The notes below the pieces were generated by a model. That model saw nothing but the letters and a program-made list of their open reading frames with translations, searched no databases and had not been told where the DNA came from. The translations under genes were made by a program, and so were the position numbers. Positions 23,474-26,966 of a stretch of 64,000 bases of DNA are shown in pieces. Each line of letters opens with the position of its first letter. Position 1 is the stretch's first letter. Origin of the DNA: an uncultured Maribacter sp. GTDB lineage: Bacteria; Bacteroidota; Bacteroidia; Flavobacteriales; Flavobacteriaceae. The DNA is taken from the NCBI GenBank assembly GCA_947498505.1, contig CANMKG010000001.1:248001-312000 (forward strand). The letters run 5' to 3'.

Positions 23474-23552
23474 TATTAGTTATTTGGCTTATAATAACAA
23501 ATATTAGTTTTTTTGCTTATATTTTATTATATTAGCTTTTTAACTTATAATT

Positions 23553-24164
23553 ATGATAGCAGTATTAACAGGAGATATTGTAAAATCTAGTAGCGCAGAC
23601 ACTTTTATATGGGTAGATATATTGAAGCAATATTTTTCAACTCTAGGGAACACTCCAACGGAATGGGATATTTATAGAGGAGATGAATTTCAGTTAAAAA
23701 TATCACCCGAAAATGCACTGCTAGTAGCTATAAAAATAAAAGCCTTAATAAAATCAGTAGAAGGTTTGGATGTTCGGATTGCAATAGGTTTGGGAGAAGA
23801 AACTTATGTGGGTGAGGGTATAAGCGAATCAAACGGAAGTGCATATAGTCGTTCTGGTAGAGATTTTGAAACTTTAAAAGGGTTAAAGCATAATTTAGTA
23901 GTTGCAACATCAAGTACAGTCTACAATAATACCCTAAATTTAATGCTTAAATTGGCGTTAAACTTTATGGATAATTGGAGCGTGGTTTCAGCGGAGATAA
24001 CAACAATTGTCTTAAACAATCCAGATTGGTCGCAAGAGAAAATTGCTGAAGAATTAGGGGTGAAGCAATCAGCCGTAAGTCAACGAAAAAAAAGGGCAAG
24101 GCTTCATTTGGTTTTAGAGCTTTTAAAATATTACAAGAACACATATAAAAAGGCATCAGAATGA
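23553..24164 (+). CDS. SatD-like protein: cyclase-fold-like domain plus helix-turn-helix
   Basis: A 203-residue cytoplasmic protein. The first 130 residues (AVLTGDIVKSS at 3-13, IYRGDEFQL at 41-49, VRIAIGLGE near 74, GSAYSRSGRDFE near 91) follow the order of motifs in class III nucleotide cyclases and GGDEF domains: an Asp after strand one, a GD-type hairpin, an RIGIG-like strand and an xxSGR segment. Residues 150-178 form a clear helix-turn-helix (WSQEKIAEELGVKQSAVSQR). Together these match the SatD family, first seen in a streptococcal acid-tolerance operon. The start codon of the DUF3307 gene overlaps its stop. DNA binding is likely. Nucleotide binding is an inference from motif order only. 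Confidence 0.75.
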   Translation: MIAVLTGDIVKSSSADTFIWVDILKQYFSTLGNTPTEWDIYRGDEFQLKISPENALLVAIKIKALIKSVEGLDVRIAIGLGEETYVGEGISESNGSAYSRSGRDFETLKGLKHNLVVATSSTVYNNTLNLMLKLALNFMDNWSVVSAEITTIVLNNPDWSQEKIAEELGVKQSAVSQRKKRARLHLVLELLKYYKNTYKKASE

Positions 24165-24868
24165 TATTGTTTACAAAATTATTTTTAGCGCATTTAATAG
24201 GCGATTTTGTTTTGCAACCATCAAAATGGGTAATTCATAAAGAGGCAAATAAGGCTGCATCAAAATACCTATATGTTCATGTTTGCATACATTTTTTGGT
24301 TACAATGTTATTGTTATGGGATTTAAGCAGTTGGAAACTAGCACTAATAATTACCATTTCGCATTATGTGATAGACGTGGTAAAGCTATATTCAACACCC
24401 TTATTTAAAAATAAGAGTATTCCGTTTTTTATAGACCAATTATTGCATGTTGCAGTGTTATTTGGAGTAGCCTATTATGGTAACTTTTTTAATCATGTTG
24501 TGGATTTATTTCAAAACTTAAACTGGGTATTAGTTACCGCTGTGGTTTTTGTCAGCTTTCCTGCAACCATTATTATGGAGAAGTTATTGGAAAATATGTC
24601 CAATCAAATACCAGTAGACCACAAATCTCTGCCTAATGCAGGTAAGTATATTGGAATGATTGAACGGTTGTTTGTTCTACTTTTTATAATTATTGGAAGA
24701 TGGGAGGTTATTGGGTTATTAATAACGGCAAAATCGGTTTTTAGATTTAACGACTTAAAAGAAAGTAATAACCGAAAACTTACGGAATACATTTTAATAG
24801 GGACTTTATTAAGTTTTGGAATAGCTATTCTCACGGGATTAATTTACTTAAACTTAATCCAAGCTTAA
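24161..24868 (+). CDS. DUF3307 membrane protein
   Basis: A 235-residue protein with about six membrane segments. Conserved polar residues lie in or near them: LAHLIGDFVLQPSKWVIHKE at the start, YVHVCIHFLVTMLLLW, and ISHYVIDVVKLYS with His and Asp, followed by FFIDQLLHVAV. This repeated H/D pattern in the membrane suggests metal or proton chemistry, which is only inferred. The ATG lies inside the TGA of the SatD-like gene (ATGA), so translation of the two is coupled. The pairing with a SatD-like protein points to a shared job that is not established here. Confidence 0.82.
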   Translation: MILFTKLFLAHLIGDFVLQPSKWVIHKEANKAASKYLYVHVCIHFLVTMLLLWDLSSWKLALIITISHYVIDVVKLYSTPLFKNKSIPFFIDQLLHVAVLFGVAYYGNFFNHVVDLFQNLNWVLVTAVVFVSFPATIIMEKLLENMSNQIPVDHKSLPNAGKYIGMIERLFVLLFIIIGRWEVIGLLITAKSVFRFNDLKESNNRKLTEYILIGTLLSFGIAILTGLIYLNLIQA

Positions 24869-25082: not shown

Positions 25083-26966
25083 GTGGGTAGAAAATACGTT
25101 TTTGATTTTGATAGTACGCTAACTAGGGTAGAGGCCTTAGATGTTTTAGCAGAAATGACTTTAGAGGGAAAATCTAATCGCGAAGAAGTTATTAGTGAAA
25201 TTCAAAGAATTACCAATTTGGGGATTGATGGTGATATCTCCTTTACACAATCATTAGAGCAACGAATTAAACTGTTGAATGCTCATAAGAACGATTTAGA
25301 AGGATTAGTAAAAGAATTAAGGCAAAAAATTTCAAAATCAATAGCTTCAAATAAGGAGTTTTTTGAAAAATTTGCTGATGATATTTATGTAGTTTCTTGT
25401 GGTTTTAAAGAATTTATAGACCCTATTGTTGAAGAATATAATATTCCGTCAGATAGAGTGTATGCTAATACTTTTGAATTTGATGGTCAAGGCAATATAG
25501 TAGGTTTTGATGTGGATAATGTGCTTTCGCAGCATAACGGAAAAATAGAGTGCCTTAAACAAATGAACCTAGAAGGTGAGGTGCAGGTTATAGGTGATGG
25601 TTATAGCGATTATGTAATGAGAGAAGCTGGTATTGCAGATAAATTTTTTGCATACACAGAAAATGTCCATAGAGAAAAAGCAACTAATAATGCTGATCAC
25701 ATAGCTCCTAATATGGATGAGTTTCTTTTTGTAAACGATTTGCCTCGTAACATATCTTATCCAAAAAACAGAATTAAAATATTATTGTTAGAAAACGTTC
25801 ATCCAGCAGCTTTTGACAATTTATCCGAAGACGGATTTTCTGTAGAGTTGGTAAAAACTTCACTATCAGAAGAAGACCTTATTGAAAAAATTAAGGGAGT
25901 TCATGTTTTAGGAATACGTTCTAAAACACAGGTAACTAAAAAGGTACTTGATGCGGCTGACAAATTGTTAGTAGTTGGTGCGTTTTGTATTGGAACAACA
26001 CAAATAGACTTAGATTATAGTAAAAAACGAGGTGTAGTCGTTTTTAATGCACCGTATAGTAATACACGTTCTGTTGTAGAATTAGCAATAGGTCAAATAA
26101 TTATGCTAATGCGTAATGTATTTCCTAGAAGTTCGGAAATTCATAATGGGGAATGGAATAAAACAGCCATAAACTCTAGAGAAGTTCGTGGTAAAAATCT
26201 TGGTATTGTTGGCTATGGTAATATAGGTAAACAGTTATCTGTATTAGCAGAAGCTATAGGTATGAGAGTTTACTACTATGATTTAGATGATAAATTAGCT
26301 TTAGGTAATGCCATAAAATGTAACTCATTAGAAGATTTGTTAAGCATTTCAGATGTGGTAACCCTGCATATTGATGACAATAAAGCAAACAAAAACTTTA
26401 TTGGTGAACGCGAGATTAATAGAATGAAAAAAGGTGCTATTCTTATTAACTTAGCGCGTGGATTTGTTGTTGATATTCCTGCATTAGTAGCAGCATTAAA
26501 AAGTGGAAAACTAGGAGGGGCAGCAATTGATGTTTACCCAGAAGAACCTCGCAAAAATGGCGAATTTAAGACTGACTTACAAGGACTGTCTAACGTAATA
26601 CTAACACCTCATGTTGGTGGTAGCACAGAAGAGGCTCAACGCAATATTGCGGATTTTGTTCCGAATAAAATAATGGAATATATAAATGCAGGGAGTACTG
26701 TTGATGCGGTTAATTTTCCAAATATTAGACTTCCAAAGCAAACTAATGCACACAGGTTCTTACATATTCACAAAAATGTACCTGGTATTATGGCTAAAAT
26801 AAACGAAGTTTTAGCAAAATATGAGATGAATATTTCTGGTCAATATTTATCAACAGATAGTGAAGTAGGTTATGTGATTACTGATTTAGATAAAGAATAT
26901 AATAAAGATGTAATTCAAGCATTAAGAAAAATTGATAACACCATCAAATTTAGAGTGTTATACTAA
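25083..26966 (+). CDS. serA: Fused phosphoserine phosphatase-like / D-3-phosphoglycerate dehydrogenase (SerB-SerA)
   Basis: A 627-residue two-part protein. Residues 1-210 are a HAD phosphatase of the SerB type: the DxD motif is in VFDFDSTLTR (6-15), with VVSCGFKEF and GDGYSD later. Residues 235-540 are a phosphoglycerate dehydrogenase with the NAD fold GIVGYGNIGKQ (near 373), the catalytic region ARGFVV and HVGGSTEEAQ. An ACT regulatory domain ends the protein (about 557-627: HKNVPGIMAKINEVLAKYEM). Two of the three serine-synthesis steps are thus on one chain. The start is GTG, giving MGRKYVFDFD directly. No in-frame ATG was found nearby. SerC is not in the window. Confidence 0.9.
   Translation: MGRKYVFDFDSTLTRVEALDVLAEMTLEGKSNREEVISEIQRITNLGIDGDISFTQSLEQRIKLLNAHKNDLEGLVKELRQKISKSIASNKEFFEKFADDIYVVSCGFKEFIDPIVEEYNIPSDRVYANTFEFDGQGNIVGFDVDNVLSQHNGKIECLKQMNLEGEVQVIGDGYSDYVMREAGIADKFFAYTENVHREKATNNADHIAPNMDEFLFVNDLPRNISYPKNRIKILLLENVHPAAFDNLSEDGFSVELVKTSLSEEDLIEKIKGVHVLGIRSKTQVTKKVLDAADKLLVVGAFCIGTTQIDLDYSKKRGVVVFNAPYSNTRSVVELAIGQIIMLMRNVFPRSSEIHNGEWNKTAINSREVRGKNLGIVGYGNIGKQLSVLAEAIGMRVYYYDLDDKLALGNAIKCNSLEDLLSISDVVTLHIDDNKANKNFIGEREINRMKKGAILINLARGFVVDIPALVAALKSGKLGGAAIDVYPEEPRKNGEFKTDLQGLSNVILTPHVGGSTEEAQRNIADFVPNKIMEYINAGSTVDAVNFPNIRLPKQTNAHRFLHIHKNVPGIMAKINEVLAKYEMNISGQYLSTDSEVGYVITDLDKEYNKDVIQALRKIDNTIKFRVLY

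Follow-up and report, generated by a model that had tools for sequence, protein, structure and literature searches.

The window analysed here is a 64,000-nucleotide stretch of an uncultured Maribacter sp. (GenBank assembly GCA_947498505.1, 4.08 Mb in 37 contigs; contig CANMKG010000001.1, positions 248,001 to 312,000). The system under study is a two-gene operon within it, together with the repeats that precede it, which we read, with the reservations weighed below, as probably autoregulated. All of its features lie on the forward (+) strand. The first open reading frame (ORF; 23553-24164) encodes a SatD-like protein of 203 amino acids (aa), and the second (24161-24868) a membrane protein of 235 aa with a DUF3307 domain. 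The two genes share the four bases ATGA, the start codon of the second overlapping the stop codon of the first, just as an earlier reading of the bare DNA letters (hereafter the sequence-only reading) had described. The locus noted in that reading, 23553-24868, excludes an array of three palindromes directly upstream (23474-23549). In the array alignment, palindrome 1 (TATTAG-N8-CTTATA) occupies 23474-23493, palindrome 2 follows 28 base pairs (bp) later at 23502-23521, and palindrome 3 another 28 bp on at 23530-23549, ending 3 bp ahead of the satD start codon.

The sequence-only reading had described a run of cyclase-like motifs followed by a helix-turn-helix, and both parts are borne out. GDIVKSS, RGDEFQL, RIAIGLGE and SGRDFE occur in that order within the first ORF, starting at residues 7, 42, 75 and 101, and a Sigma70_r4 helix-turn-helix match lies C-terminal to them (27.3 bits, cut-off 24.1). 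As a name, SatD fits the window protein weakly: it scores 25.9 bits against the SatD family PF16264, below the curated cut-off of 29, hence the label SatD-like. It shares with that family its length, its plan of a palm domain plus helix-turn-helix and its motif order (GD-I/V/L-xxS, then GDxFQ), and a relative with 61% identity, from genome G008, reaches 29.4 bits. The top named relatives come from Maribacter, Zobellia, Cellulophaga and other Flavobacteriaceae, in a listing that may omit the nearest genomes. Relatives above the PF16264 cut-off occur in 45 of 247 Bacteroidota genomes.

A structural model of the SatD-like protein, built on a 41-row alignment, has a mean predicted local distance difference test score (pLDDT) of 95.1 and a predicted template modelling score (pTM) of 0.92. 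Its topology is b1 a1 b2 b3 a2 b4 a3 b5, followed by five helices. Foldseek matched the model in the PDB to class III cyclases, GGDEF domains, GTP cyclohydrolase III and Cas10 subunits, and the matches include a cyclic UMP synthase; one match lies at E < 0.001 and many at 0.001-0.03. VIA-align returned Z scores of 9.8 to 11.8 among the 50 matches listed, the best being GTP cyclohydrolase III (2qv6, Z 11.8, root-mean-square deviation (rmsd) 2.8, 108 residues aligned), with Cmr2 (3ur3, Z 11.2), the cyclase Rv1625c (7yz9, Z 10.9) and the GGDEF domain of DosC (4zvg, Z 10.6) among the others. These scores are near ties: they establish the fold but do not single out a nearest family. As modelled, the N-terminal domain (residues 1-118, 23553-23906, from the model and the fold search) is clearly a nucleotidyl-cyclase palm. 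Structure prediction and fold comparison had been set beforehand as the test of the claimed cyclase-fold core, and the outcome agrees with it. A PDB sequence search with the window protein gave no match at E <= 1, and no cyclase family was present among the best 25 of the 64 Pfam families matched by 41 SatD members. The predicted helical DNA-binding domain spans residues 144-201 (23982-24155) and its recognition helix residues 172-181 (24066-24095), both placed by Pfam, the model and covariation.

Conservation was read across 186 SatD-like proteins, a set that includes members above the PF16264 cut-off. The two presumed metal aspartates are present in all 186, in line with the metal-site conservation that the sequence-only reading had named as decisive: D8 on strand 1, within the GDIVKS motif (23571-23588), and D44 in the strand 2-3 hairpin, within RGDEFQ (23676-23693). 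S12 and G43 are each kept in 185 proteins, Q47 in 183 and F46 in 176. SatD has its fold in common with class III cyclases, GGDEF proteins, GTP cyclohydrolase III and the Cas10 palm, and D8 and D44 may correspond to their two metal aspartates. It differs from them in its helix-turn-helix, phased array and membrane partner, and catalytic residues other than the aspartates are not conserved. Residue 103, whose place in the motif order would correspond to the class III transition-state Arg of the helix following strand 4, is not conserved, with Arg in 80 of the 186 proteins and Glu in 71. Position 42 holds Arg in 150 proteins and Leu in 29, D44 is followed by E or S, and the GG(D/E)EF signature is absent, the window protein having RGDEF. 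These alignments make a metal-nucleotide site in the palm plausible, and do not support class III chemistry in its usual form.

The same residues bear on the possibility that SatD is an active nucleotidyl cyclase or polymerase which, on or off the array, makes a nucleotide messenger for the opening or activation of the membrane partner, much as Pycsar or CBASS would. Invariance of both aspartates is more than a dead sensor domain requires, the fold matches are enzymes (the cyclic UMP synthase included), and the two-gene plan of a cyclase fold with a membrane protein is that of Pycsar. One pair even adjoins a Pycsar operon, on a Sphingomonas insulae plasmid (L208:2162-9652) where it lies between that operon and a TIR-domain gene, a single case. 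Such an enzyme is less easily reconciled with the R/E split at position 103 and the E or S after D44. Neither the SatD-like nor the DUF3307 protein matches a PADLOC family at E <= 1, and the DNA-binding domain with its own operator array is not known to have a counterpart in Pycsar or CBASS. We consider an active enzyme unlikely.

The array proved to be a regular feature of satD loci. Upstream regions of the window lineage and of Flavobacterium align as repeated palindromes, and the best pair of like palindromes was sought at any period from 20 to 60 in 185 distinct satD upstream regions. The best period was 28 in 109 regions, 29 in 32, 56 in 16, 57 in 5 and 58 in 6, together 168 of the 185, for a set of periods that was chosen after viewing the data and into which 11.7% of shuffles fall at any score. 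Strong pairs (score >= 24) at these periods were present in 143 of 185 regions, against 0 of 248 segments elsewhere in the same loci and 0.4% of 925 shuffles. With a single representative per cluster, the best period belonged to the set for 44 of the 52 clusters formed at 60% identity and for 13 of the 16 formed at 40%. The half-site letters are TATTAGC in the window clade, TATTAC in Flavobacterium, TTAGCC in Vibrio, TCAACC on an Enterobacter plasmid and GTTCGCC in haloarchaea. Judged from these upstream regions, lineages from Flavobacteriia through to haloarchaea have kept the spacing but not the letters. A clear array was missing at several pairs: on plasmids from Salinivibrio (L206, L228), Pseudomonas fragi (L207) and Sphingomonas insulae (L208), in the record from Fusobacterium (L209), and at loci L219 and L220. 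A separate observation concerns the palindrome spacer, which in Flavobacterium loci (e.g. L085, L111) varies between species and is alike within one array, as if homogenised.

Half-site letters track the sequence of the SatD helix-turn-helix. Among 93 representatives, half-site profiles were compared register-free with 12-residue protein windows, using a leave-window-out baseline and removing the similarity of the rest of the protein. Half-site similarity correlated best with helix-turn-helix windows (0.31 for the window starting at residue 166, 0.29 for that at 172) and at no more than 0.10 with palm windows, in a test that removes shared ancestry only in part. None of 2000 half-site permutations reached the value of residues 172-183. 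An earlier test had given a weak signal (partial r 0.08) because two dyad kinds were mixed in it. This tracking of the repeats ahead of the gene is what would be expected of a regulator that acts by DNA binding, as the sequence-only reading had proposed.

Genome-wide scans tie the array to satD. The Flavobacterium two-unit pattern (<= 1 mismatch) was found at 26 places in 25 of 81 genomes, 25 of them 26-212 bp upstream of satD and one elsewhere, and the reversed pattern at none. A satD match is present in 46 of the 81 genomes, and the array in 0 of the remaining 35. The window-type pattern was found in 34 of 249 family genomes, always 1-86 bp upstream of satD, again with 0 for the reversed pattern; satD matches occur patchily, in 150 of the 249, and the window-type array in 0 of the other 99. 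For both strict patterns together, 59 of 60 genomic array places lie just upstream of satD, with at least one genome (G079) belonging to both sets. The strictness of the patterns means that satD genes with variant letters are missed. In the window genome, a single-site pattern written from the window's own three copies (<= 2 mismatches) gave 58 matches, including those three, against 73 for its reversed form, which is background; a wider regulon was not seen there.

The lone place away from satD (G366:C5:251066-251113; L310:1567-1614) holds two palindromes, with one mismatch. The region is prophage-like, and the Flavobacterium genome in question has a satD at another site, with an array of its own. 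A gene for a terminase small subunit (phrog_606, E 1e-43) is found some 1 kb from the two palindromes, which precede an 84-aa ORF of no known family by about 80 bp. The exact Flavobacterium pattern also occurs in 15 IMG/VR contigs (L321-L335, 5-308 kb), which flank comparison reduces to 9 distinct elements, and two controls, one with these palindromes re-spaced to a 31-bp period and one with the letters reversed at 28 bp, each gave 0. SatD was not found in the 15 viral records, which are possibly fragments, by a search run without a positive control. Fourteen of the 15 have no perfect site other than the array's two palindromes. The array stands 2 bp ahead of a small ORF in two elements (L326 and its copies, L327) and between convergent genes in L325 and L330, and its neighbours include an integrase, metallophosphoesterases and a repair exonuclease. 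Compared with named phages, the array neighbourhood of L325 had no match and that of L327 weak matches only. The strict Maribacter-type pattern was found in no viral contig; a degenerate form, scanned without a control, matched 6 contigs representing 2 distinct elements, one of them in a simple tandem repeat, and was not counted. Phages use host regulators such as LexA, so a viral array need not be a decoy.

The membrane partner consists of two halves. The DUF3307 domain (PF11750; residues 3-118, 24167-24514) scores 96.3 bits (cut-off 23) and covers only the N-terminal one, where H11, D15, H68, D72, D92 and H96 are invariant in 24 aligned sequences, in keeping with the repeated His/Asp of its helices noticed from the letters. 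The C-terminal membrane domain (residues 155-232, 24623-24856) is the constant part, about 80 residues with charged residues within predicted helices. In 23 aligned partners, G165, E168, K191, L212 and G214 of this half never vary, and R169, R195, Y210 and S218 hardly do. When ten proteins with the domain were scanned against Pfam, no family scored above its cut-off. The model of the whole membrane protein (pLDDT 85.6, pTM 0.65) had no convincing match among those listed from the PDB (best Foldseek E 0.85; VIA Z <= 6.7). Ion channels stood in the top VIA rows with a large rmsd and were not accepted as relatives.

Gene order shows how closely the two proteins are linked. SatD was found in 32 of 60 related genomes, with DUF3307 next to it in all 30 loci examined (the window's and 29 others). 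Over genome and viral contigs, DUF3307 follows satD directly in 81 of 82 loci, with the 4-base overlap in 56; this recurrence of order and pairing goes beyond chance and upholds the expectation that the two genes usually stand together; the exception, in a Eudoraea metagenome-assembled genome (L082:6001-6680), has an intact satD and still encodes only the partner's last helix. In the 247 Bacteroidota genomes, 60 of 65 DUF3307 genes have satD immediately upstream, or 61 after the remaining five were read (L311 has satD, L312-L315 do not). From the side of satD, DUF3307 adjoins 60 of 94 loci and is missing next to the other 34, and it was rejected as an obligate partner. Of these 34 loci, 32 were read, and in 27 the C-terminal half is present in the neighbouring protein, which either begins with an N-terminal half of another kind (239-249 aa) or consists of little else (104-137 aa). 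The profile for this half was built from DUF3307 proteins and its weakest matches score 19-31 bits, yet these fall on the gene immediately after satD. Plasmids of Agrobacterium, Natronosalvus and Sphingomonas parapaucimobilis carry SatD with a gene for the C-terminal half only, and high-scoring PF16264 members, too, mostly have a partner without DUF3307.

On these profile matches, the usual partner of SatD is the unnamed C-terminal membrane domain, and the DUF3307 half is optional. This two-half architecture accounts for the satD loci without DUF3307. It also revises the coupling to a DUF3307 membrane protein put forward in the sequence-only reading: the tight pairing with a membrane gene holds, whereas the half with the His/Asp residues can be dispensed with. 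The DUF3307 protein of an Acinetobacter phage (L222:2459-2788, 109 aa) consists of that N-terminal half and nothing more, and the stretch read there contained no SatD. A row of the ORF table for Ralstonia phage RsoM2USA lists ORF187 as a DUF3307 protein of 134 aa (PMC8504454).

Members of the family came from Bacteroidota, Pseudomonadota and haloarchaea, and from one Fusobacterium record. The pair is carried by the E. coli plasmid pEC34A (L203, 3,770 bp), whose DUF3307 protein recurs at 100% identity on five Klebsiella plasmids of 3,770 bp, and by a 4,424-bp Klebsiella plasmid (L212). It is also present on plasmids of Enterobacter, Pseudomonas fragi, Vibrio, Salinivibrio, Pseudoalteromonas, Segatella and Sphingomonas, on two haloarchaeal plasmids and in the 2.1-Mb Fusobacterium record. 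Two plasmid pairs had no blastn match in 5,426 E. coli genomes. On L203 and L212, the pair is the main cargo next to replication/mobilisation genes and short ORFs. The Maribacter lineage keeps the operon at one constant chromosomal site, between a phosphatidylethanolamine N-methyltransferase (PEMT)-like gene and serAB. In the window, positions 25083-26966 hold a serB-serA-like ORF of 627 aa with a GTG start, in which a haloacid dehalogenase (HAD)-type, phosphoserine phosphatase-like domain is fused to a 2-hydroxyacid dehydrogenase and an ACT domain.

A constant place in one lineage and a one-operon regulon would also suit an ordinary stress operon, with SatD as a repressor whose palm only dimerises, no nucleotide involved, and the partner an acid- or ion-stress transporter or channel. 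The sat operon was reportedly the subject of a study by Kremer et al. in 2001. The window protein is tied to Streptococcus mutans SatD by a sub-threshold Pfam score. A palm that only dimerises sits poorly with D8 and D44 being kept throughout, and this explanation alone leaves the arrays on viral contigs and the copies on tiny plasmids unexplained. We think it quite improbable.

Mobile copies also raise the possibility of DNA tethering or segregation, in which the array would be a centromere-like site, SatD the adaptor and the partner the anchor, and phages with only an array would hitch a ride. Plasmid partition cassettes, like autoregulated operator or iteron arrays, place an array ahead of the operon of the DNA-binding protein; pairs occur on very small plasmids, and some phage arrays lie between convergent genes, away from a promoter. 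SatD departs from these systems in its cyclase palm and in a near-fixed 28/29-bp period across phyla with drifting letters. The constant chromosomal place in Maribacter, with one array per genome in the cases seen, argues against segregation, as does the invariant presumed metal site, which an adaptor does not need, and no motor gene was seen adjacent. Of the readings considered, this one strikes us as the most far-fetched.

On balance, we lean towards SatD being an autoregulator that binds metal, and probably a nucleotide, and controls a membrane effector, which would make the operon a self-contained switch. SatD dimers would bind the palindromes side by side; with a period of 28 bp, or some 2.7 turns of the helix, adjacent dimers would spiral around the DNA. 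SatD would thereby control its own operon, most likely by repression, because the window's last palindrome ends so close to the start codon. DNA binding would be altered by a metal-bound nucleotide in the palm, so that a shift in the cell's nucleotide state, as in stress or phage infection, would cause the membrane partner, the putative effector, to be produced or engaged. Ligand, sign of control, cooperativity and effector role are the parts of this scheme that we infer.

Several observations weigh against the autoregulator model. No strong phased pair was seen in 42 of the 185 upstream regions. Among the 32 satD loci without DUF3307 that were read, five also lack the C-terminal domain; two of these (L116, L140) are cut by contig ends, and the other three are L138, L316 and L319. 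The distance from array to start codon varies, with medians of 5 and 34 bp for the two types and values up to 212, so repression is not the sole possible sign of control. Finally, autoregulation alone does not account for the phage arrays.

A role in defence is favoured by the plasmid copies and the viral arrays, and disfavoured by the constant chromosomal place in one lineage. In its boldest form, the pair would be a nucleotide-linked immune or stress system with a palm protein sitting on a lattice at its own promoter, and two-palindrome phage arrays, matching it in letters and spacing, would titrate or recruit SatD by DNA alone. We hold this to be a long shot; if true, phages would be countering defence with decoy DNA, or hijacking a host regulator in a new way.

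For a family known only as SatD or DUF3307, the analysis supplies a predicted fold, a likely binding site and a usual partner domain, as well as a prediction for each component. The array offers a short DNA handle for binding, footprint or reporter experiments, which would open the way to ligand screening. The viral and prophage-like arrays connect the SatD family with phage-host conflict. If the autoregulator model is right, DNA-binding autoregulators would join the cyclase-palm superfamily, whose other known roles are in signal synthesis and type III CRISPR.
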